Positions 6,573-29,962 of a stretch of DNA of 32,000 nucleotides are shown here, piece by piece; position 1 is the first letter of the stretch, and each line of letters opens with the position of its first letter. Made by a program: the position numbers and the translations under genes. The notes beneath the pieces are model-generated. The model was not told the origin of the DNA, did no database searches, and saw only the letters and a program-made list of their open reading frames with translations. This DNA is from a virus, in IMG/VR virus record IMGVR_UViG_3300024517_000071, positions 1 to 32,000 of that record, one strand, 5' to 3'.

Positions 6573-7331
6573 CTAATCATCCACCAGCAAAATCTCAAAG
6601 TCCGCCGATACTTCGGTCCCCGCGCCAGACCCGTTCGCCTCAAACCATATATCCGTCAACGCCGGCAACGCCGACAACGGTGACCGAGGCTTAAAGGGGA
6701 GCGTCCCCAAAACCCCATCCCAATGCAACATAATCCGCTTGGACGCCATCGGAGCTATGACGGAATCGGTTATATCCTCACGCTTCATCACCCTGATGTC
6801 CGCCGCCTTGTTGCCATCGACGGTCACCAGCGAACTCAACAAATAGCCAGTCTTGCCCGTGGGGATGGTGTAGCCCGCGTATTGCGTCTGGCCTTCACCC
6901 GCCGCAATCGTGATCATGTCCACTCCCGACTCGATCACAATATCATCGATGTTCGTACTACCGTACACCCCCACCGCCGACACCCAGGCCCGATGAACCC
7001 GCCAGAAGGACGCGCTGGTCGCCGAGCTGGCCGAAGCGCCCGCCGTAACGATCGCCTCCGACGTCTCCGCTAGAGACGAGTCGATGCCCTGAACAGTGAC
7101 TTCCCGCGCACCCAAACCGGACGAATCGTCGAACGCCGAACCCCCAGCCTTGATCTTGACCGTGGTTGCGGACGAAGGGAAGTTGGCCACCGCAAAGGGT
7201 GTAAGCGAAACATGAGCCCAAGAACCATTGGGCACCGCGTCGTTTCGGCCGAACTTGTGGATCAGCGAATGGCCGGCCACGTTGCCCTTTTGGACCTCGA
7301 TCAGAAAATCTTTGTCACCTATGTAGCTCAT
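6573..7331 (-). CDS. Putative virion structural protein
   Basis: A 252-residue beta-rich protein starting MSYIGDKDFLIEVQKGNVAG. Segments such as WAHVSLTPFAVANFPSSATTVKIKAGGSAFDD, SFWRVHRAWVSAVGVYGSTNIDDIVIES and YTIPTGKTGYLLSSLVTVDG recur in marine podophage structural proteins of unknown exact role. The composition suggests a beta-sandwich. The start overlaps the stop of the upstream gene as ATGA. It is part of the tail appendage cluster and is followed by the small conserved gene at 6150. Confidence 0.78.
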   Translation of the reverse strand: MSYIGDKDFLIEVQKGNVAGHSLIHKFGRNDAVPNGSWAHVSLTPFAVANFPSSATTVKIKAGGSAFDDSSGLGAREVTVQGIDSSLAETSEAIVTAGASASSATSASFWRVHRAWVSAVGVYGSTNIDDIVIESGVDMITIAAGEGQTQYAGYTIPTGKTGYLLSSLVTVDGNKAADIRVMKREDITDSVIAPMASKRIMLHWDGVLGTLPFKPRSPLSALPALTDIWFEANGSGAGTEVSADFEILLVDD

Positions 7332-14112: not shown

Positions 14113-15660
14113 TTACTCCTTGCGAGCCAGTCGCTTCAACATGCTCGCTGCGTAGAGGCCGCTCACCCAGTATCCGTCACAACCTTCTAGTTCTAGATCA
14201 GCACAGGCGCTCGGAGCCTCAATCTCGGTCACGTCAACAACTCTCTTGTCGAGTCCTACGTGATCGTCGATTTCAAGTTCTACGGGTAGGACTTCAGTCA
14301 GCGTCCAGTCGTCGCCCTTCTGCTCGTGTTTTTGGACCGGATGATCGTAGGTCATCCGCACAACGCCCTGCTCGCCCTTCTCGTCCTCCCAGGTAACGGC
14401 CACGAAGTCTTTCAACCGCACCTTGGGAGTTCTTCCCATGTCGGTTCGCAACACCTTGCAATACTCACCGTCATCACCGAGTACCCTGTCGCCGACTTGA
14501 ACAGCGCCTAGCGGAACCATTCCGTTTGGCGACATCACGTTCTCGGCGACGTCGATGCAAGCCACCAGGATTTTTGCGGCGACGACGGTCCCAGTGCCCT
14601 GAATTATCGGACCAGCCAACTGACTCCCCGTACTCGGCGTATCAACCTGGGGAGCAATTCTTCCACCTGAGTTCATCATCGACTGTAAAAATGTCGACAA
14701 ATTCGGCGGAATGTCATTACGAGACGCCAGCAGGTTAAGCAACTCAGTATCCGCTTTGCCGAATCGATTGATCACCTGCTCGGATCGAGCAGTCGAAGAT
14801 GCGCGACTCGCCTCGTCAAATCCACGGTTTAGATCAAACGCACTAAGCGCAAACTGATTGGCCGCATCCGCAGTCTGCGCTCTTCCAGAGGCACCGACAC
14901 CAAATCCAGCCGCACCAAGTCGTTCTTGTGCCGCAAGCGTGTCACCGCCTACGCCAGATAGGACGCCGATCCTCTCGCGCCTAAGTCGTTCATTCAGATC
15001 ATTCTCGGCTTCAAGCCTCTCTCGTTCGACACCGCTACCGGCACTGGCCAACAAGGTGCTTGATCCTAAGCCGCGGGAAGCCAATTGAGCCTGTTGTCGA
15101 GCCAATTCCTCTTCCGCACCCCGATTAAGTCGCGATCGATCTACCTCACCCAACCCCTCTAGTTCGGCAGTGATAGACGATTCTCGGTCCCGAAAACCCT
15201 GAAGCAGTGGATCGGAAAACGCACTGAACGCCTGTTGGTCGGCGTCAGACAGGCCACGCAAATTGAATAGGACGTCATCACGAGTCCCAGAAAGATCGGT
15301 AGCAGCCGCTTCACGACCTTCCTCCAGGCGACGTTGGTCGGCCGTTTCTAGGTTTTGAAGCATCTCTACGTCACGCGATGAGCCCCTACCAATAATACCA
15401 CGCGACTCTTGGAAACGCGCTTCCGTGGCTGCCGCTGCCTCTTCTTCAGCCCGTTGTTGTTCGGCCGCCTGGGTCAACGGAAGCCCAAAATCCTTGAGAC
15501 TTTGGATGAGCGGATTCCCCTTGCCTAATTGAATTATCGCCCCAAGGATTGAGTTAGAGAAAAGGCTAGGGGCCAGGCCGGTAAATGACTCCGGCAGGCC
15601 CGAAGTCGACTGACTAGCGCCCCTACGTCGCTGATCCAGAAAATCTTGTAGTAATCCCAT
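14113..15660 (-). CDS. Internal virion protein with C-terminal Hint (intein-like) domain
   Basis: A 515-residue protein. Residues 1-330 are Ala, Gln and Arg-rich and helical, like internal virion or ejection proteins. Residues 368-515 form a Hint domain: Cys368 begins CIDVAENVMSPNGMV (block A), GAVQVGDRVLGDDG follows, RMTYDHPVQKH (about 435-445) is block B with the T-x-x-H motif, and ADLELEGCDGYWVSGLY (487-503) matches block F. There is no homing endonuclease. The block G ending His-Asn plus a Ser/Cys/Thr is absent; the end reads YWVSGLYAASML. I expect no splicing, but N-terminal cleavage at Cys368 or a purely structural role is possible. The ATG at 15660 (behind GGAGG, in TAATG overlap) is preferred over a TTG at 15675. 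Confidence 0.82.
   Translation of the reverse strand: MGLLQDFLDQRRRGASQSTSGLPESFTGLAPSLFSNSILGAIIQLGKGNPLIQSLKDFGLPLTQAAEQQRAEEEAAAATEARFQESRGIIGRGSSRDVEMLQNLETADQRRLEEGREAAATDLSGTRDDVLFNLRGLSDADQQAFSAFSDPLLQGFRDRESSITAELEGLGEVDRSRLNRGAEEELARQQAQLASRGLGSSTLLASAGSGVERERLEAENDLNERLRRERIGVLSGVGGDTLAAQERLGAAGFGVGASGRAQTADAANQFALSAFDLNRGFDEASRASSTARSEQVINRFGKADTELLNLLASRNDIPPNLSTFLQSMMNSGGRIAPQVDTPSTGSQLAGPIIQGTGTVVAAKILVACIDVAENVMSPNGMVPLGAVQVGDRVLGDDGEYCKVLRTDMGRTPKVRLKDFVAVTWEDEKGEQGVVRMTYDHPVQKHEQKGDDWTLTEVLPVELEIDDHVGLDKRVVDVTEIEAPSACADLELEGCDGYWVSGLYAASMLKRLARKE
14116..14559 (-). other. Hint / intein-like domain coding region
   Basis: Encodes the last 148 residues of the virion protein, from the nucleophile-position Cys368. 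All the central Hint landmarks are present (Cys at the start, GDRV loop, TYDHP block B, DLELEG block F) but the C-terminal His-Asn pair is replaced. It sits at the very end of the protein rather than inside it, as in autoprocessing Hint proteins and not as in a classic intein. Confidence 0.75.
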
Positions 15661-17846
15661 TAGTCTGGCCTCCAATCACCAAGCGTTTCATATCTCATTC
15701 GAAGCGCTTCAGTTTGCCATCGACTTCCACTATCGTCGTCCCCGATCACAACAAACGCCGAAGCGCCACGGACCTGCGGATGGAGAACATTCCTGCCCGC
15801 ACTCACTGTTTCCGTGAACGACGGCGTGGTAAGAGCGATTGCCTCTTCCGGTGTTTGGGCAGCATATACATCGCAATTCGCGTCACCGGACAAACGAGCC
15901 ATCGTCAGATCAATGTCAAGTATCTGCCCCTCTTTGTATCCATCCCCGCCCAGGGCGATCGGACCGAGCCACACCTCCGAATCGATTGTCGTGCCGTCGT
16001 CATTGACCGATCCAGCATGGAATCTTCGAATGTACCCGTCTCGACAACCGAAGAGAACGGCAGCGTCTACCGCCGAATCGCTCTGATAGTTCACCATGGA
16101 AAGCGGCTCTTGCTCGACCGGCAGAATGAATGGGAAGAATGCCCCAATGGTCATGTTGTACCAGTAATGATGGCCGACGATCGAGTCCCACGACGTCACG
16201 GAAATCACGATACCCCGGTACACTGGATCGTAGGCCAACATGATCGCGTTGGCGTCCGGGTCCAGGTTCTTCAATTCCTCCGGGATTACGTCCTCCGACA
16301 GTGGGACCGGGTAATTTCCCGGACCTGGGTTTAGAGCGTACAAACCGTTCTGACCGAGAAAAGCAATCGCACCGCCAGGGAGATGAGTCCACGCCGTCGG
16401 GCCGATGATGCCGATCGCATAGCTAATCTGGTCGATCTGACCGCCCTGTCGAGGATCCCCGCGAAGAAGACCCAATCGATTGCGTTCCGCTAACAGCAGG
16501 TAATCGATGGCCATGGGAACCAGTGCAATGATCGGACCGGACATCGCCCCCGCAAACAAACCGCTTGACGTAGCGGCGACCGCAGATTGAACGGTCGTTC
16601 CCGAGTAGTCCCAATCCAAGGGATTGCCTTGCCCGCTCATGTACCAGATGTTCGGAGCGTCGGCATCGCCAGCAAAGACCAGCCGATCGAGGAAGGTCGC
16701 ACACACCCGCGTTTTCGTCGGAGCGGTTCCAGCAGAAGCCACCAGCGGAATAATTGAATCAGACGAAGGGTCGTAGACGAACGGCGCGGCGTTGGCCGGA
16801 TTGGGCACATAGAGCTTACCTAGCCGCTCGGCGGTAACAATCGTCTTGCGGACCGTCTGCGCCAAACTGCTACTGGTGACCGCGATCATCGTCTTGACGT
16901 TCGTTTCTCGGTAGAGATCCACATCGTCAGCCGTGTTCAGTGCCGCCGCCACCACTCGATTGCGGTTAAGCTGCTCGCCCCCCAGCGGCACGTAGCTGAT
17001 TCGAACGCCACCGAAGGCCACGAACAGACCATCCTGTGCAACAGAACCAATGCCGGAAGCCGCACCGAGACCGATACGAGTTCCCGCCGTGGTCACGTAA
17101 GTTTCGTTGTATCGCTCTACGCCTTTCCATCGTACGAGGATTGTATTGGCTGCCTGGATCTCTATTTCAAGATCGCCGCCTTCTCCGGTCGCTTCATCAA
17201 AAAGTGTACTGATTGATGTTCCCAGCACTCCCCCAGCGTAAAACTGTAGACCTATGCGATAGCGACCGCTACCCACTCCCGACAAACTAACAAGAATCCC
17301 ATCTTGCAACACGTTCGCAGTCGTGTTGTCCATTCTCGCGTAGACTTCGAGAGTGCCTATTTGCTGAACAAAATTCGTTACGTCGGGAATCGTCGCGGTA
17401 ATCGTGTAATCTTCCGCAGGATCAATGTCTCCTACTTCCTCGAGAACCGATCCCCGATCTGTCGCAGAGTCGACTGAAACAATCGTGCCATACAGCCCAG
17501 GTTGGATTCTGTTACATGCGCCAGCATTCACACCAGTTTCCTTCCATGGCGCAGCACTCCACCGCAATGTAGTATTTGTCAGGAAGTCTTCGGTGAAAAG
17601 GGAATCGCCATCGTTGTCCAGATCGCGAAGTTGCGAAAGAAGTGTGACCGGGTTACCTACTCCGAACTGCTCGTTGAACGCCTTGAGCGTCCCCATGCGA
17701 CTGCCACCGCGCACGCGGGATTCGCCAGGATCCACTGCGCGCACGTTGGATGCTTTGCGGGTGGTGAACGGCGGCTGACGCTGATACGCCAACCGTCGAT
17801 TCTCGCCACCGGCCGGGAATAGGATGTCGATGCTTCGGCGAGCCAA
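15660..17846 (-). CDS. Tail nozzle / tail tubular protein B-like (stabilisation) protein
   Basis: A 728-residue protein resembling podophage nozzle proteins (P22 gp10 or T7 gp12 type) in layout rather than in a single motif. The N-terminus FPAGGENRRLAYQRQPPFTTRKASNVR is like the entry sequence of that group. A run of about 290 residues of beta-sandwich is inserted after it. Then comes RLVFAGDADAPNIWYMSGQG plus NPLDWDY, a strong nozzle signature, and LPGGAIAFLGQNGLYAL. Its job would be to close the tail and gate DNA exit. It begins at TTG 17846 behind GGGGGTGG; no ATG is near. It overlaps the next gene by one base. Confidence 0.85.
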   Translation of the reverse strand: MARRSIDILFPAGGENRRLAYQRQPPFTTRKASNVRAVDPGESRVRGGSRMGTLKAFNEQFGVGNPVTLLSQLRDLDNDGDSLFTEDFLTNTTLRWSAAPWKETGVNAGACNRIQPGLYGTIVSVDSATDRGSVLEEVGDIDPAEDYTITATIPDVTNFVQQIGTLEVYARMDNTTANVLQDGILVSLSGVGSGRYRIGLQFYAGGVLGTSISTLFDEATGEGGDLEIEIQAANTILVRWKGVERYNETYVTTAGTRIGLGAASGIGSVAQDGLFVAFGGVRISYVPLGGEQLNRNRVVAAALNTADDVDLYRETNVKTMIAVTSSSLAQTVRKTIVTAERLGKLYVPNPANAAPFVYDPSSDSIIPLVASAGTAPTKTRVCATFLDRLVFAGDADAPNIWYMSGQGNPLDWDYSGTTVQSAVAATSSGLFAGAMSGPIIALVPMAIDYLLLAERNRLGLLRGDPRQGGQIDQISYAIGIIGPTAWTHLPGGAIAFLGQNGLYALNPGPGNYPVPLSEDVIPEELKNLDPDANAIMLAYDPVYRGIVISVTSWDSIVGHHYWYNMTIGAFFPFILPVEQEPLSMVNYQSDSAVDAAVLFGCRDGYIRRFHAGSVNDDGTTIDSEVWLGPIALGGDGYKEGQILDIDLTMARLSGDANCDVYAAQTPEEAIALTTPSFTETVSAGRNVLHPQVRGASAFVVIGDDDSGSRWQTEALRMRYETLGDWRPD

Positions 17847-22290: not shown

Positions 22291-23370
22291 CTAATCGTTA
22301 TCCGCGGCCGTTGCCATAACCCACAACCTACGACGGTTCTTGACCTTCAGGTTGTAGACCAAGTCGAGGTCTTTACCGATCACGCCGACGTAGCCGGACA
22401 GCTCCTTGGCTTCGTCGCTCTCGATTTGCTCGTAGCCCTTGAGCACCGCGATCTTCGCGACACCCCAGTCGAAGCCGTAAATCGGATCGTCAGAGTCGCT
22501 ATCCAACGCACGCATTTCGACCAACGGGTGACCGTTGACCCGCGTGCTGCCGGCAAACTTGAACAGGTCGTCGCCCAGTTGATCGTTTTGCAACTGAGCC
22601 AGGGCTTCATGTTCCCAGACCAATTGAGGTTTCATGTAGACCTGAAGGTTCGGACGGCCACCATCGGTGACCATCGACTCGATTTTACTTCTGAGCGGGG
22701 TCTTCCAAGCGGTTTGCCCCATGCACGCTCGCATGCCCTTCACTGAATCGTCGGCGCTGACGTCGGTATATTTCAACGTGTAGTTCTTCCACCCGCTGTA
22801 GGTGCTACTGTTGAGACCGATACCACTGGAGAAGCCGCTGGGGTTTCCGCCACCGAACTCGCCGGGATAGGTCGCCGAAGAACCAGTGATCTTCTTGACG
22901 CAGTAGGACTTCATGCCAAACGGCGTGATGCCGTCGGATTGGCCGGGGTGACCTGACAGGGTCGACTCGACCAACTCCAAGAATCCCAGCCAGGAAGCCG
23001 CTCGCTTAGATCCGAACAGATCGATGAGCTTCACCTGATTGCCGGCGTTCATACGAATCGCCGCTTCATCGACGCCAAACGATTCAACGGTTCGGCCCCA
23101 GCGAATGGAAGCCTGCGCCGTTACATCTTTGGTCTCGATGATGCGCTGGACATAGTGACCCGCATGATGCGCAGTGGTTGATTTGTTCACCAAAGCAAAC
23201 CAGTCGATGGTATCACCACCGTCCAGTTGCATGCGGTGCTTGTTGAATAACTCGGGAATGAAAAGATAGTTCTGTTGGTCTGACGCGAGATCGATCAGGC
23301 TATTCCGATCGAAAAACGCAAGCGTTCCGTTCGCCAGGTCCAACAGGTCCGTGGTTACGATTGGAGGCAT
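22291..23370 (-). CDS. Major capsid protein
   Basis: A 359-residue protein directly downstream of the scaffold gene and the best candidate for the major capsid protein. Layout: an N-terminal arm (LLDLANGTLAFFDRNSLIDLAS), a long alpha/beta region (GGDTIDWFALVNKSTTAHHA; VTAQASIRWGRTVESFGVD), and a C-terminal axial-type domain (YGFDWGVAKIAVLKGYEQ; VIGKDLDLVYNLKVKNRRRLW). This fits an HK97-fold capsid protein of a podophage. It is not cleaved by any protease gene visible nearby. TAGGAGATAAACA precedes the ATG. Confidence rests on length, place and pattern. Confidence 0.85.
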   Translation of the reverse strand: MPPIVTTDLLDLANGTLAFFDRNSLIDLASDQQNYLFIPELFNKHRMQLDGGDTIDWFALVNKSTTAHHAGHYVQRIIETKDVTAQASIRWGRTVESFGVDEAAIRMNAGNQVKLIDLFGSKRAASWLGFLELVESTLSGHPGQSDGITPFGMKSYCVKKITGSSATYPGEFGGGNPSGFSSGIGLNSSTYSGWKNYTLKYTDVSADDSVKGMRACMGQTAWKTPLRSKIESMVTDGGRPNLQVYMKPQLVWEHEALAQLQNDQLGDDLFKFAGSTRVNGHPLVEMRALDSDSDDPIYGFDWGVAKIAVLKGYEQIESDEAKELSGYVGVIGKDLDLVYNLKVKNRRRLWVMATAADND

Positions 23371-23380
23371 TGTTTATCTC

Positions 23381-24298
23381 CTAGCTGCTGAACGACGCCG
23401 CCCGTGCCCGCAACTCGTCTTCTGTCAGCGTAGAGGCTTCTAGAATTCTCTGTCGCGCGGCCGCAGCTCGCTCCTTGAGTTCTTTTTGTGGATCCGGCGA
23501 GGCATTCCCTTGGCCTGCCGGACGACGTATACCTTGTGATTCACGATCCTTGACCTGCTTGGCAACTTCTTCGCGCGCCTGAGTCGCAGCACGATTTCCG
23601 AATTCCAAGCCGACAGCAGCCTTGAACAACGCCTCTTCCGATTGGGCAGGTAAGTTCATCTGCTCGAAAGATCGCTGAAGGGCCTGCATCCTAGGCAAGA
23701 GCTTTTCGACACGAGCGGTGTGCTCGCTGCTTCCTCGGGCAAAGGCCGATGTCGGGCCTTTTCCAAGGACGTCAGCGTACGACTCGCCATGTTGACCAAT
23801 CAAACCATCCATGGCGCTTACCACCAAATGATGGGTAATCTGTTGAAGTTGTTGTTGGAGCGCCTGGACAGCGTCATTACTCGAAGTTCCAGCACCCATG
23901 CCACCGTGTAGCACTTCCAATTGTCCATTGAGATCGGACAAGAACTGTTCATCGAAGTCCGCGTGATCGAAACGCTTGAACGCCGCTTTCTCGGCGGGTG
24001 TCGCGCCAGTGGGCGCTGCGGCCGGTTGCGGTGCTTGAGCTGGAGCCGGTTGTGATTGCGGCGTAGCGGTCAGTCGATTGAGATAATCGACCAGGGCTCC
24101 TTTTGTTTGAAAACCCATAGCGGCTTCGCGAGGTAGTCCCAGAGTTGCCGCAATGCCAAGAACCTCGTCGTCGATGTCGGATGTTGGAGCAGCCGCGGCC
24201 GGAGTTTCCGGTACTGTTTCAACTGGCGGATCTGTCGAAGGTGCTGCGTCATTGTCGCTGCCATCAGGAACGATCGGTTCGGAAATATCTTCGGGCAT
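23381..24298 (-). CDS. Capsid scaffolding protein
   Basis: A 305-residue acidic protein. Residues 1-40 are rich in Asp, Glu, Pro and Ala; 80-100 is a Pro/Gln/Ala linker; and then come long helices (AEKAAFKRFDHADFDEQFLS; AVQALQQQLQQITHHLVVSA). The end is basic and helical (QKELKERAAAARQRILEAS). This matches scaffolding proteins: flexible acidic start, coiled-coil middle, positively charged capsid-binding tail. It is placed just before the capsid gene. TAGGAG precedes the ATG. Confidence 0.82.
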   Translation of the reverse strand: MPEDISEPIVPDGSDNDAAPSTDPPVETVPETPAAAAPTSDIDDEVLGIAATLGLPREAAMGFQTKGALVDYLNRLTATPQSQPAPAQAPQPAAAPTGATPAEKAAFKRFDHADFDEQFLSDLNGQLEVLHGGMGAGTSSNDAVQALQQQLQQITHHLVVSAMDGLIGQHGESYADVLGKGPTSAFARGSSEHTARVEKLLPRMQALQRSFEQMNLPAQSEEALFKAAVGLEFGNRAATQAREEVAKQVKDRESQGIRRPAGQGNASPDPQKELKERAAAARQRILEASTLTEDELRARAASFSS

Positions 24299-24307
24299 CG
24301 GAAACTC

Positions 24308-24634
24308 CTAGCAAACAGTCAGCCCGCGGAAGCGAGCTGCCTTTTCGAATTCAAGTTTGGAACCAACGACGGCCGTACCGTCGTCTTTGTACTCGATTGC
24401 AATTCCGTGCCTGCGGTGTTCCTCTCGGAATTCCGGCACCTCTTCAGGCGTACAGGACAAGGCCGTGCTCTTTTTGGGCCAGAGGTCGCATTTCAAAGGC
24501 TTTGTTCGATTGCCAAATCCCATTTCGAACGTCTTCCCATCTTGCTCCACGCAACTCGGAGCGTTCCCAATCGGAACCTTCAAGATGATCAGTTCGCCAT
24601 CGTCGGCCGTATACGCTTGGTTTCGCATATCCAT
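24308..24634 (-). CDS. Hypothetical first gene of the late operon
   Basis: A 108-residue protein, MDMRNQAYTADDGELIILKV and onward. It contains several Cys (CDLW, LSCTPEE, final C) and charged segments (EVPEFREEHRRHGIAIEYKD). The ATG at 24634 is preferred over a TTG at 24652, which would lie within the terminator U-tract. GTGAG is the only ribosome site candidate, so translation may be weak. It is 17 bases downstream of the terminator in the leader. Similar small genes occur upstream of scaffold genes, but I cannot give a role. Confidence 0.65.
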   Translation of the reverse strand: MDMRNQAYTADDGELIILKVPIGNAPSCVEQDGKTFEMGFGNRTKPLKCDLWPKKSTALSCTPEEVPEFREEHRRHGIAIEYKDDGTAVVGSKLEFEKAARFRGLTVC

Positions 24635-24650
24635 TGAACACTCACAGCGC

Positions 24651-24690
24651 AAAGAAAAGGGGGCGCCAAGCTCAAAGCTCAGCGCCCCCT
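24651..24690 (-). terminator. Strong intrinsic terminator in the late-operon leader
   Basis: On the minus strand, a perfect 9-bp stem (AGGGGGCGC pairing with GCGCCCCCT) encloses a second 4-bp stem (AGCT-TTG-AGCT), and is followed directly by TTTTCTTT. It lies between the promoter at 24829-24858 and the first gene. As drawn, it would stop most late transcription unless overridden. Confidence 0.8.
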
Positions 24691-24828
24691 GTTAGGCACC
24701 TCGTGAATCAGGCACTCAGTCCCCAATGGCCCTAGGGGCGTGCCCTATTTCTTTGCGGTTGTTGCTACATTACATTCTTCCTCATCGACGCACAAATATA
24801 CGCCAAGCCTACACAATCCATCGCTTTC

Positions 24829-24858
24829 AGTATAGCATCAGTTATTGAATTCTGACAA
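24829..24858 (-). promoter_or_regulatory. Late-operon promoter (sigma70-like, extended -10)
   Basis: On the minus strand: -35 TTGTCA at 24858-24853, an 18-base spacer, and -10 TATACT at 24834-24829 with the TGC of an extended -10. Transcription would start near 24822 and run toward the capsid genes through a leader of about 190 bases. A second -10-like hexamer, TATATT, occurs at 24800-24795 in the early leader. Confidence 0.72.
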
Positions 24859-24879
24859 ACCCAGTATCGGATCAAGATC

Positions 24880-25464
24880 ATGGCCTACCGAAGAGAAACC
24901 AAGAAGGCTCGCAAAGATCGACTGGAGGCCGCGGGCAAATGGACGGATTTCAAAAACACCCGAGACGAACTGGTTCAGCGATATCTTGACCAAGGAATGG
25001 ACGAAAAAGAGGCCACAAAGCAGGGTGGAAAGGAAGCAGACTCACTTTTCGACAACTATGGGACCAAGGCTGAGATCGAGGAAGTACAGCAGGAGCAGGT
25101 CAGACGCCGCAACAGCGCACCCCAGCCCAAGGCAATCGACATGCTGGTCAAGGCCGGCATAGCCAAACAATCAGAAGGGCCTGGCATCATCAGCCCTGAG
25201 GTGGAAATCCGATGGGTCCACCAGAACCTCATGGTCTCGTGGGACGAAATAGATCCCCAGTCCGTACCCACGGGCGGCGCCGTCGCCCTACTGGAACAAG
25301 CCAAGGGCGACTTCAGGTGGTTCTTCGAGAAGTTCTACAGCAAGCTCATGGTCAGTCGAACGGTTGACGAAACCAACGGCGAAGGCGACGGGGAAGATCC
25401 CGCGGAAGTGGAAAGCATGATCGGCGATCTGTTGACCCCCGCCCAGATGCAGGCGGTCCAATAA
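24880..25464 (+). CDS. Putative small terminase subunit
   Basis: A 194-residue, charged, helical protein immediately upstream of the large terminase. The N-terminus (MAYRRETKKARKDRLEAAGK) is basic and could contact DNA. The middle has helical segments (DELVQRYLDQGMDEKEATKQ; EEVQQEQVRRRN), and the end is acidic (NGEGDGEDPAEVESMIGDLL). The only argument for small terminase is position, size and the basic start with an oligomerising-type helix; no helix-turn-helix is obvious. It overlaps the terminase start by one base (TAATG). Confidence 0.55.
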   Translation: MAYRRETKKARKDRLEAAGKWTDFKNTRDELVQRYLDQGMDEKEATKQGGKEADSLFDNYGTKAEIEEVQQEQVRRRNSAPQPKAIDMLVKAGIAKQSEGPGIISPEVEIRWVHQNLMVSWDEIDPQSVPTGGAVALLEQAKGDFRWFFEKFYSKLMVSRTVDETNGEGDGEDPAEVESMIGDLLTPAQMQAVQ

Positions 25465-27284
25465 TGAACCAGTGGCACAAGATCGTTCCTTTGGATCCCA
25501 TCGCCAACCTTCAGTTCCGGGCGGAAATGCACCAAAAGGCCGCCAATTCGGCTTCTCACCGGCGAGCCCTCAGAAAAATGTGTCAAGAAGACACCCTGTT
25601 CTTCATCAACGCGTACGCGTGGACTTATCAGCCGACGATAAACCCAGACCAGCCCAATCAGCCGTTCATCACCTTCCACCGACAGACAGAACTGGCCTTG
25701 GACCTGATCCCCACGATCGGCAAGCGCCACAGCTCTTTTCTGAAGTCCCGTTCCATGGGTATGAGCTGGATGCTGCTGCTCATCCTCTTGCCCCGATGGC
25801 TGTGGTGGAAGCTACAGAGCTTCGGACTGGCCTCTCAGACCGACGATCTGACCGACACGCCAGGCAACTACAGATCGCTTATCCCCAAGGTGGATTATGC
25901 CCTGAAACGTCTCCCGGCGTTTCTGAAGCCCAAAAAGGTCCGTCGCAAGAAGGGGGAGCTACACAACCTCGAAACGGACAGCATCTACTGTGGGAGCGCC
26001 CGGACCAAGGACGGACTACGCAGTGAGCGTCACACGGCACTGCTGCTCGACGAGTTTGGATCCTTCGAGCTGAAGATGGGAGAACTCTTTCTATCAGCAC
26101 TTCAATCGGTATCGGAGTGCAATTGGATACTCAGCACGCCTCAGGGCAGCGTCGGCGCCTTCCACCACATCGTCAAGAAGACCGCGATCAAAAACTACAA
26201 GATCCACTGGTCACAATGGCCACTCAAAGCCGCCGGGCTCTACAAATTTGACGGCAAGACGCTCAAAATCGTCGACGAGACGTTTCCGTTCCCCCCCGAC
26301 TACCCCTTCGTGCCCGACAACCGCCTTCGAAGCCCTTGGTACGATCAAGTCTGGAACGAGATTCAGATCGCCTCAATCATGGCCCAGGAGCACGATTGTA
26401 GCTTTATCGGCTCTGGAGACCCGGTATTCAACCCCATCGAGGTCGATCGGATCCGCAAAGAGCATTGCGTGGAGCCCACCTCTCGATGGTCGATCGAACG
26501 CAACAACATCATCAAAGACCCCAACGGCCCGATCCTAGTATGGGCCAACACCACCGACGGCGGACCGCCGCGAGACCGCCGCTACGGCGCCGGATGCGAC
26601 GTTTCCGCCGGGACAGGCGCCTCGGACTCCACCTGCGAGATATTCGACTGGAGGACTCGCAAAAAAGCCTGCGAATACGTCGTCAACGACCAAAACGAGT
26701 ACAAATTTGCCAAACAATGTGCCATGATAGGCCGATTTTTCTCTGACTACGAAGGCCGGCCGGCCCAAATGGTCTGGGAGGCCAACGGCGGACTCGGCAG
26801 GAACTTCGGCAATGAACTGATCGACCAGAACTACGAAAACCTCTATTGGGCGCCATCGGACGATGATTTACAGTCGGCCGCCAAGCCCGGAGTGCCCGGA
26901 TTCTGGTCAACTGCCAGCAGCAAAAAAACGATCATTAGATCGTACTTCCGCGCCCTAGCAGCCTGCGAGGTCATCGATTCCAGCCTGGCGTCCGTCGACG
27001 AACTCCACGACTTCGTCTACGGCCCCGGTGGAAAAATATGCCACAAAGCCGATCTTCCTTCGCACCCCGTCTTGTCTGGAAAAGGCGAAAATCACGGGGA
27101 CCGTGTCATGGGCAGCTCGCTGGCGTATCATATCATGCCGCCCGATGACCAACTGTTCGTCAGCGGAGAGGTGCAAATGGCCCACGGCGAAATTGCCGAT
27201 ATGATCGAAGAACAACGCGAGTACGAATTCCGAACAACCAATAGCAGAGACGGATGGTGTAGGAGTCACGCTGATGCCCTTTGA
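25464..27284 (+). CDS. Terminase large subunit
   Basis: A 606-residue ATPase-nuclease that pumps DNA into the capsid. The Walker A is the deviant type: KSRSMGMSW at 94-102, with Lys at the start and Met where the usual GKS/T lysine is (lambda gpA carries KSARVGYSK). Walker B is LLLDEFG at 194-199 region (Asp196, Glu197). ILSTPQG at 222-228 is the coupling motif. The RNase H-like nuclease has Asp379 (GAGCDVSAG), Glu439 (VWEANG) and Asp546 (HGDRVMG). Length is usual for the family. It is flanked by the small subunit and portal genes and overlaps the portal by 11 bases. Confidence 0.92.
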   Translation: MNQWHKIVPLDPIANLQFRAEMHQKAANSASHRRALRKMCQEDTLFFINAYAWTYQPTINPDQPNQPFITFHRQTELALDLIPTIGKRHSSFLKSRSMGMSWMLLLILLPRWLWWKLQSFGLASQTDDLTDTPGNYRSLIPKVDYALKRLPAFLKPKKVRRKKGELHNLETDSIYCGSARTKDGLRSERHTALLLDEFGSFELKMGELFLSALQSVSECNWILSTPQGSVGAFHHIVKKTAIKNYKIHWSQWPLKAAGLYKFDGKTLKIVDETFPFPPDYPFVPDNRLRSPWYDQVWNEIQIASIMAQEHDCSFIGSGDPVFNPIEVDRIRKEHCVEPTSRWSIERNNIIKDPNGPILVWANTTDGGPPRDRRYGAGCDVSAGTGASDSTCEIFDWRTRKKACEYVVNDQNEYKFAKQCAMIGRFFSDYEGRPAQMVWEANGGLGRNFGNELIDQNYENLYWAPSDDDLQSAAKPGVPGFWSTASSKKTIIRSYFRALAACEVIDSSLASVDELHDFVYGPGGKICHKADLPSHPVLSGKGENHGDRVMGSSLAYHIMPPDDQLFVSGEVQMAHGEIADMIEEQREYEFRTTNSRDGWCRSHADAL

Positions 27285-28986
27285 CCCAGAAGACAAAGAC
27301 TCAGTCTCAAAACTCTCGGTCGCAATGGTCCGAAGTAACGATCACATCAGGAAGTTCCGCAAGAAACGCTACCAGATCCTCCAACAATACGTCGGCTGGC
27401 ATCACCAAGAGCATCAGGCCAGGCGTTCCGTGCCACTCAATCTCATCACCGACTTCGTCGACACCTACGCCTTCGCAATGACACCGACCAACCCCACCGC
27501 GTACATCACCGTCCAAAACGGCACGCAGAACATAGAAGACAGCGCCAGAAAGCTCCAGATGGCCGTCGATCACCTGATTGGCGTAATCGATCTCTCGAGC
27601 ACCCTGTACTTCAACGTCTTCGATGCGCTGATCAGCACATTCTCCGTTATGAAAATCGGACTGCTTACCGGCCCCAACGTCACAACCCTTCCAGGCTTCC
27701 TACGGACCGTCGGACAGATATTCGCCAATCACGTTCTACTCGACAACTGGATCCACGACATCAACGCCACCAGTTGGGACTCCATCACCTACGCCGGCGA
27801 TGAAGACTTCCCCACCCGAGAAGAACTGGTCGAAGAAGGCGTGGTCACCGAACAAGAAGCCGAAGAACTACCCACCGTCGAAGTCTCAGTAGAAAAAGGC
27901 GTGAAGCCGGCCTTCGATACACAGGGCCTGAAGAAGCGAGTCAGTCGATGGCAAATGTGGCTGCCTCAAGAACGTCAGATCGTGACATTCGTAGGTGACG
28001 AACGAGGCCCCACGGCAAAAACACTCGGCGAACCCATCAGTTGGACCGGTCCCGACGAAGGCCCCTACATCAACCTCTCGCTCAAGCCCATACCCGGAAG
28101 AACATTCTCCTTGTCGCCCGCCAGTTCCATTTTAGAGCTACACGAACTGGACAACGTGCTCTTTCACAAGGCATCGGACCAAGCTCGGGACGCCAAACTG
28201 GTGTTCGGAGCACGACGCGGACAACACCAGGACGCCAATAAGCTGCGTATGTCGCCCGACCGAGAAATGGTCACCGTCGACGCGGATCCATCCATGATCA
28301 AAGATTTCCACTTCCCCGGACCCGATCAGGGCATTCTCGGGATGCACGCCATCACCGGACACGAATTCAACGTCAGAGCAGGGAACCTCTCGCTACTCAA
28401 CGGAACAGCCGCACAGACCGATACCGCCCGGCAAGACGAACTGCTCGACCGCAACGCCAACGGAAAAGTCGACGCCCAGAGAACTCGGGTAACGACCTTC
28501 ACCGGCAAAGTGCTCCGAACAATCGCTTGGTATCTGTTCACTGATCCGCTCGTAATCCTGCCGCTCTCCAGACAGGTTCCGCGAACCAATAAAACAATTC
28601 CCACCACTTTCACGCCCGACGATCAAAAAGGCGACTTCTTCGACTACAACGTGACCGTCAACCCAACCTCCATGGCCGCGCAAACGCCGGAACGGGAACT
28701 CTCAAAGCTGGTAGGCTTCCTCAACACCTTCTACGATCGATACCGACAGGAAATGGCACAGATGGGTGTGGCGATCAACTGGCCCGAACTCATCAAAGAA
28801 GCCGGGAACCTCATGGGGATCCAAAACGCCGACCGATACATCATGCTCATGGCCCAGCCGGCACAGACACCCCAATCAACAACGACATCACCCGGTGGAC
28901 AGCCGAGACAGCCGGTCAACGCCGGAAAGCAGTCCGACTTCGAAACCCAACTACTACAATCGATTGGGAAAACGAACGCGGCCTAG
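27274..28986 (+). CDS. Portal protein
   Basis: A 570-residue protein right after the large terminase. The N-terminus DHIRKFRKKRYQILQQYVGW and the following VPLNLITDFVDTYAFAMTPTNP are typical of the portal clip and wing entry region. The middle has a stem-like helix and the C-terminal helices (ERELSKLVGFLNTFYDRYRQ) a crown-type end. The disordered Gln/Thr/Pro tail is common. It forms the ring at one capsid vertex that binds terminase and the connector. The ATG is inside the terminase gene. It is at the end of the plus-strand packaging unit. Confidence 0.88.
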   Translation: MPFDPEDKDSVSKLSVAMVRSNDHIRKFRKKRYQILQQYVGWHHQEHQARRSVPLNLITDFVDTYAFAMTPTNPTAYITVQNGTQNIEDSARKLQMAVDHLIGVIDLSSTLYFNVFDALISTFSVMKIGLLTGPNVTTLPGFLRTVGQIFANHVLLDNWIHDINATSWDSITYAGDEDFPTREELVEEGVVTEQEAEELPTVEVSVEKGVKPAFDTQGLKKRVSRWQMWLPQERQIVTFVGDERGPTAKTLGEPISWTGPDEGPYINLSLKPIPGRTFSLSPASSILELHELDNVLFHKASDQARDAKLVFGARRGQHQDANKLRMSPDREMVTVDADPSMIKDFHFPGPDQGILGMHAITGHEFNVRAGNLSLLNGTAAQTDTARQDELLDRNANGKVDAQRTRVTTFTGKVLRTIAWYLFTDPLVILPLSRQVPRTNKTIPTTFTPDDQKGDFFDYNVTVNPTSMAAQTPERELSKLVGFLNTFYDRYRQEMAQMGVAINWPELIKEAGNLMGIQNADRYIMLMAQPAQTPQSTTTSPGGQPRQPVNAGKQSDFETQLLQSIGKTNAA

Positions 28987-29398: not shown

Positions 29399-29644
29399 TT
29401 ACACGTGAAACAAAACAGAACTGACCATTTGACCGAACACCCAGTACCACAAGAACCATAACACCACCAAACACGCCAAAAGGATGATTCTACCGATAGG
29501 AACCCTCAAATTGAACGACTTTGATGACAAGGGGTTAAGTGGAGTCCCACGCTCGCGGACGCCGGGACGGTTTTTCGCGTTCTGAGCGATGGAAAGAATT
29601 CTATTTGAGTCACAAGTCGTTATGTGGCAAGGTCTTACGTTCAT
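29399..29644 (-). CDS. Possible small membrane protein
   Basis: A frame whose last 35 residues form a strong membrane segment (RIILLACLVVLWFLWYWVFG) with a short tail. The first ATG of the frame is at 29644 (MNVRPCHITTCDSNR) and has no convincing ribosome site; shorter GTG/TTG starts closer to the hydrophobic part are possible. The stop is 13 bases before the next gene's start. I cannot name it; only the hydrophobic segment is well supported. Confidence 0.35.
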   Translation of the reverse strand: MNVRPCHITTCDSNRILSIAQNAKNRPGVRERGTPLNPLSSKSFNLRVPIGRIILLACLVVLWFLWYWVFGQMVSSVLFHV

Positions 29645-29674
29645 AGCGTTCGATAGTCGAGTGCAACGTAACAC

Positions 29675-29920
29675 CCCTTATAGGACTCAACGACAGACTG
29701 AAGCGACGATATGAGACAGGGGGCAAACTGGTTGTAGATACCCATCAAACCCATTGCAAACACTGTGTAAGCTCATTGCAAGTTCGAGGCGTTATCAACC
29801 ATCCAACGGGGGATACATCCTACCGCCGCTCCCCCCCTAGTATTTACTTGGCTCCTCGATTCGTCAATAGCGCCGCCCAATCCCTACCAAAAGAGTAGGA
29901 CATTCAATCTGATAAAGTCC
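29675..29920. other. Intergenic control region
   Basis: About 250 bases without a gene between divergent units. It holds two direct copies of CATTGCAA (29752-29759 and 29774-29781), a C-rich stretch near 29829-29838 and a short stem CCTAC/GTAGG (29883-29899). The hand-counted strand composition changes around here, so an origin or a regulatory hub is possible, but nothing decisive is visible. Confidence 0.4.
29839..29867 (-). promoter_or_regulatory. Candidate minus-strand promoter for the small genes
   Basis: TTGACG (29867-29862), 17-base spacer, AATACT (29844-29839): four of six at -10. It would transcribe the genes at 29021-29644. The leader would be about 190 bases. Moderate support only. 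Confidence 0.4.
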
Positions 29921-29950
29921 TTGACAGGGATACACCATTTGGTGTATGGT
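29921..29950 (+). promoter_or_regulatory. Early-type promoter with operator palindrome
   Basis: A perfect -35 TTGACA (29921-29926), 18-base spacer, -10 TATGGT (29945-29950). The spacer and -10 carry ATACACCATTTGGTGTAT (29930-29947), a perfect 8+8 inverted repeat with TT in the middle, followed by another TGGTGTA in direct repeat. A repressor bound here would block the promoter. It drives the operon from 30024. Confidence 0.75.
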
Positions 29951-29962
29951 GTATGTAGAAAT

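Follow-up and report, generated by a model that had tools for sequence, protein, structure and literature searches.

Organization of the head-gene region

The DNA analyzed here comprises positions 1 to 32,000 of IMG/VR record IMGVR_UViG_3300024517_000071, an incomplete record of an uncultured virus; this 32-kb stretch is referred to as the window. Its only close relative is another contig of this virus, 99.95% identical, and a DNA similarity search of the window's intergenic region against phage records retrieved none. Distant relatives (25 to 32% protein identity) were gathered from IMG/VR through TerL and portal alignments. Four of the five portal homologues in public genomes lie in Planctomycetota MAGs, where binning errors are possible; thus, the host is probably a planctomycete. 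When 294 Planctomycetota genomes were searched with the window portal, the sole match was the already known G015.

Three minus-strand genes (gA, a putative scaffold, and a putative major capsid protein) form the operon under study, and their promoter lies between them and the divergently oriented TerS, TerL, and portal genes (Table 1). Portal and capsid genes occurred together in 66 other loci, some of them overlapping on the same contig, and in every one these genes share a direction and follow the order portal-(gA)-scaffold-capsid. Unlike these 66/66 loci, only the window has gA-scaffold-capsid inverted with respect to TerS-TerL-portal (22291 to 28986). Despite the inversion, the element described below keeps its position and direction relative to gA. 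In a compact clade of relatives (L019/L020-like), portal and gA touch and the leader is absent; its function is therefore dispensable or replaced in that clade.

Two further features of the coding sequences were observed. The gA genes of relatives L133 (4035 to 4406) and L138 (8123 to 8494) begin with a zinc-ribbon-like stretch, MPTYCFRCPECG...CGNCG, that is absent from the window gA. Elsewhere in the window, the C-terminal part of a minus-strand product (14113 to 15675) appears intein/Hint-like by eye (CIDVAENV...GDRVLGDDG...); this product has no Pfam or PHROGs match, and its PDB intein matches are at chance level only (E values of 0.25 to 0.55).

Table 1. Coordinates of genes, promoter, and RNA features at the head-gene locus of the window
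Feature	Position	Strand	Remarks
Putative major capsid protein, 359 aa	22291-23370	minus	Same-position homologues in 66 loci; no Pfam/PHROG match
Putative scaffold protein, 305 aa	23381-24298	minus	tblastn to L020, E 3e-7; adjoins the capsid gene; no Pfam/PHROG match
gA, 108 aa	24308-24634	minus	First gene of the operon (ATG 24634); homologue of the gene after portal in relatives
U-tract UUUCUUUGCG	24648-24657	minus	Also the P1 3' strand; predicted 3' end of short RNA ~24656-24650
P3, 15-bp intrinsic-terminator hairpin	24658-24690	minus	AGGGGGCGCUGAGCU-UUG-AGCUUGGCGCCCCCU, tail UUUCUUUG
P2 arm	24694-24745	minus	GGGCAC 24745-24740 pairs with GUGCCU 24699-24694; several alternative pairings
P2b, enclosed by P2	24703-24715	minus	GUG/CAC
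P2a, enclosed by P2	24738-24735 / 24724-24721	minus	CCCC/GGGG; GGCCA in loop
P1 5' strand CGCAAAGAAA	24748-24757	minus	Conserved with L133/L138
-10-like TATATT	24796-24801	minus	Near leader position +22; candidate sigma-dependent pause
sigma70-like promoter, extended -10	24858-24829	minus	TTGTCA-18-TGCTATACT; best site in the window
Putative TerS	24880-25464	plus	Divergent neighbour of the promoter
TerL	25464-27284	plus	After TerS
Portal	27274-28986	plus	After TerL

Promoter and terminator of the leader

The original prediction placed an extended -10 promoter, on a strand it did not state, and a leader of about 170 nt ending in a strong terminator ahead of the first late gene. Each of these features was recovered on the minus strand. 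The promoter (-35 element at 24858 to 24853, -10 element ending at 24829) scored 11.0, compared with 9.5 for the runner-up on both strands of the 32 kb, with a P value of ∼0.005 when the region preceding the element was shuffled for comparison. Transcription would start near position 24822, and the distance from this point to the predicted stop agrees with ∼170 nt. The terminator, P3, has a GC-rich stem directly followed by the U-tract, which ends 14 nt upstream of the gA start codon. With its tail, P3 has a folding energy of -29.1 kcal/mol, whereas the next-best U-tailed hairpin of the window reaches -17.7 kcal/mol and the best in 100 dinucleotide shuffles of the whole window reaches -23.2 kcal/mol. 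The strongest promoter and the strongest terminator of the window stand together, upstream of the capsid operon.

Among the relatives, TTGACA promoters precede the element in L182, L183, and L191. No sigma70-type promoter was found just upstream of the leader in L133, L138, and most portal leaders (described below); thus, the leader may lie inside longer transcripts at these loci.

Several other promoter- and terminator-like sites were recorded. On the plus strand of the window, a TTGACA-18-TATGGT site (29921 to 29955) precedes a tandem repeat of TGGTGTA, close to a region poor in long open reading frames (29400 to 29860). The distant relative L115 carries a perfect consensus, TTGACA-17-TATAAT, upstream of a scaffold-like gene (plus strand, ∼6580 to 6620). 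A weaker terminator-like site on the plus strand of the window (24733 to 24757) is a mirror image of the minus-strand element, with which it shares TTTCTTTGCG. In the phage-like contig L198, from a Red Sea MAG, five strong terminators stand in series (minus strand, 644 to 2727), three of the five followed by a recurring CCCGATA motif.

Predicted fold of the leader RNA

The leader is predicted to fold as a whole: an outer helix, P1, closes around two arms, P2, which is branched, and P3, which is the terminator. The full leader has a minimum free energy of -74.4 (z score of -3.0; 0/200 shuffles). P1 is a 10-bp perfect inverted repeat, overlooked in the original prediction, in which the U-tract (24657 to 24648) pairs with an A-tract of the upstream leader (24757 to 24748). 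By itself, P1 is of moderate significance only in the window: its perfect Watson-Crick length was matched in 4/5,000 shuffles (1,278/5,000 with GU pairs allowed), and by duplex energy it is not significant (P = 0.41). The exact P1-repeat pattern also occurs in 10 other viral contigs, where the flanks are unrelated; these occurrences were attributed to chance. Stepwise folding suggests a local hairpin within P2 by the time transcription would stop, with P1 forming only later. GGCCA lies in the P2a loop of this cotranscriptional fold and is absent from the loop in the final minimum-energy structure.

An RNA switch, in which an upstream GCCCCT would pair with the 5' arm of the terminator, had also been put forward. 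The segment is present (24739 to 24734), but the antiterminator that it would form is energetically too weak: the GCCCCU:AGGGGG pairing contributes -5.6 kcal/mol alone, and its best completed fold (-50.9 kcal/mol) is ∼9 kcal/mol worse than the terminator fold (-59.9 kcal/mol). No clear conserved terminator/antiterminator alternative was found. At curated thresholds, Rfam gave no match in the window or 13 relatives and otherwise chance-level matches only.

Homologous leaders upstream of gA

Strong U-tailed hairpins occur directly before gA in L133 and L138, directly before scaffold in L117 and L187, and directly before portal in many others. The folds of L133 and L138 resemble that of the window, with pairing between an A-tract and the U-tract, a P2 containing two small hairpins, and a P3 terminator. 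A covariance model (R3) was built from L133 and L138 alone, with the window excluded. R3 matched the window from end to end at 24760 to 24618 on the minus strand, including the start codon region, with 36.7 bits (E = 3.5e-8 in an unfiltered search of the 32 kb; E = 6.7e-7 in 619 kb). The match lies directly upstream of gA and in the same direction. The next-best match (21.9 bits) was the portal leader of L191. BLASTN detected no similarity between the window leader and those of L133 and L138.

When these three leaders were aligned, 98.2% of pair cells formed pairs, compared with 42 to 52% in slid versions; 10 pairs were changed on both sides, compared with 3.5 in shuffles, and compensatory changes fell in P1, P2, and P3. 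Support for a fold shared by the window leader with L133 and L138 is good but not overwhelming, because the structure guided the alignment, which has three rows, two of them close. Beyond these loci, R3 found no match in 392 Planctomycetota genomes, a search run without a positive control. A viral scan with the gA proteins of L133 and L138 yielded four more loci, one being the L129 contig again, and none has an R3-type leader.

A family of portal leaders

A model built from five elements that precede portal genes (R1) found more members and was refined to R2. The resulting family consists of 16 distinct elements, mostly directly before portal, with no Rfam match; in each, the U-tailed terminator abuts the start codon. 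Covariation across the 16 elements is very strong: both sides have changed in 36 of 40 pairs, and 91.4% of cells are paired (64.1% in shuffles; 40 to 49% in slid versions); an earlier covariation set comprised 11 rows. Conserved features are an AAUAnCGGG start, a P2 loop of GGCCA or UGAUCC, a ACGCAAGAA junction, and a P3 with U-tract followed by GCCCG. In the longer records tested, the element occurs once. One member, in L175, follows TerL and does not directly precede portal. In three Planctomycetota genomes the element is flanked by genes for a terminase of the GpA type (PF05876/PF20454) and a portal of the lambda type (PF05136); judged by these genes, the regions are phages or prophages with packaging proteins of other families. 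Moderate R2 matches in further genomes (L207, L208, and L211 to L214) were discarded, as they resemble plain terminators and match mainly at P3.

R2 places its rank-1 match to the window at full length and at the right place and strand, but with 12.4 bits and an E value of 0.21; on this weak match, the window leader is best described as related-looking to the portal family. The R3 match to L191 weakly ties the two leader types. In portal leaders, the P3 loop is, by eye, exactly complementary to the adjacent 5' arm, which is not so in the window, where the P3 loop has 3 nt. This complementarity (e.g., UUUGGG-UG-CCCAAA) was observed in L122, L126, L129, L130, L135, L159, L164, L171, L175, L180, L183, and L217. 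The 5' arm of such a P3 could pair with either the loop or the 3' arm; the sequences vary and the complementarity stays.

Possible roles of the leader

We judge it marginally better than an even chance that the gA-scaffold-capsid operon has its promoter and a conserved, structured leader at 24858 to 24634 (minus strand), where transcription is conditionally terminated through some phage or host factor. The analysis shows the promoter and terminator sequences, the conserved fold, the homologous leaders before gA, and the larger related-looking portal family; from these we infer that termination takes place and is under regulation by some factor. RNA polymerase would start near 24822, P2 would fold first, and P3 would follow. 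The default product would be the short RNA, whose U-tail could then pair with the leader's own A-tract as P1. The head genes would be made only by read-through of P3, since the 14 to 24 nt between P3 and the ATG leave no room for a promoter. Late in infection, a phage or host factor acting on P2 or the junction, or on the polymerase making the leader, would allow passage. No variant has lost the U-tract, which in each faces the head gene. Attenuation, in the sense of conditional termination of transcription into the head genes, would be the simplest account and the most likely role.

An extra factor would be unnecessary if P3 were a leaky, constitutive attenuator that sets the level of head-gene transcription, with the rest of the fold helping or tuning it. 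The U-tract and P3 are indeed the best-conserved parts; however, conservation, with compensatory changes, extends to P1, P2, and the junction, beyond the needs of a plain terminator, and a brake before the most needed proteins would be odd. We consider this reading unlikely, and to a similar degree we doubt that the element acts on the mRNA, whether by stabilizing the 5' end of the capsid message, as a processing site, or as a translational control bound by a head protein. Such a role would fit a hairpin that abuts the head-gene start codon in every case, with an outer helix extending into the translation start in L117/L187, but neither a stabilizer nor an operator needs the U-tract that follows P3 in all variants.

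The original prediction also likened the locus to lambda pR'-tR' and called for a Q-type antiterminator, a phage protein that would load onto polymerase near the promoter and cause P3 to be ignored. The outline of promoter, terminated leader, and late operon stands, and the -10-like TATATT would suit such a scheme, but a Q-type system is not supported. The lambda-Q family PF03589 gave no match in 13 records including the incomplete window record (an E. coli control was positive), PF06530 gave nothing over the cutoff in these records, and PF06323 gave no match in them in a search without a positive control. Next to the promoter lies TerS, encoded on the opposite strand, and several leaders have no nearby sigma70 promoter. 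Given the diversity of Q families and an incomplete window record, the absence of Q is weak evidence; nonetheless, we regard this mechanism as improbable. Slightly more improbable is that P2 and the junction act in cis on polymerase, like put RNA, so that P3 and later stops are read through. A conserved multihelix RNA right after a promoter, with P2 loop and junction conserved in the portal family, would suit this reading, but put acts on later terminators (PMC9378689), and the window leader includes the terminator in its own fold.

Least likely, and very improbable, is a DNA-level role, either as a packaging or initiation site or as a terminator merely shielding divergent operons. The 110-bp inverted repeat, the position near terminase, and the mirror-image site on the plus strand would be compatible with it. 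Against it, U-tract and stem are strand specific and always face the downstream head gene, and the pair changes preserve RNA pairing; the relatives' genes are all co-directional and thus offer nothing divergent to shield.

Conditional termination remains the preferred reading. Because the fold is conserved in distant phages, the evidence that the leader matters is much stronger than in the original prediction. A wider proposal, which we advance tentatively and rate somewhat short of even, is that such leaders, each structured and carrying its own terminator, form a novel type of phage riboregulator that times head-gene transcription via some additional factor, at the terminase-portal or portal-scaffold junction, in otherwise unrelated Planctomycetota phages (SU10-like-portal podoviruses and GpA/lambda-portal phages). 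A conserved RNA at the start of head genes, common to unrelated phages and absent from Rfam, is a concrete and testable control point that bears on head-gene timing in uncultured phages of little-studied hosts. It could also serve as an annotation marker for such phages and possibly as a tool part for switching transcription.

Comparison with known systems

GP20-a and GP20-b are among the candidate motifs that Weinberg et al. reportedly described in 2017 for RNAs preceding phage head genes. Like the window leader, they are structured RNAs placed before a scaffold-type gene of a phage; they differ in that Rfam gave no match at curated thresholds in the window or 13 relatives. Terminator-type riboswitches and leader attenuators likewise combine a structured leader with an intrinsic terminator near the start codon; in contrast, the window leader matches no Rfam family, has no conserved antiterminator that we could find, and belongs to no known ligand class.

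To our knowledge, lambda pR'-tR' is not known for a conserved folded leader. Its resemblance to the window lies in a promoter, a terminated short leader RNA, and late genes past the terminator; unlike lambda, the window has neither a Q-family match nor an adjacent Q gene, and its terminator stands directly before a head-gene start codon. The put RNAs of HK022, at ∼70 nt with two stem-loops, act on later terminators (PMC9378689). They too are structured phage leader RNAs just after a promoter, but they carry no built-in terminator, whereas the window leader has one. By sequence, the relatives of the window leader are other terminator-bearing head-gene leaders, not lambda, and the leader probably represents an undescribed, RNA-based control of head production and not a copy of the lambda switch.
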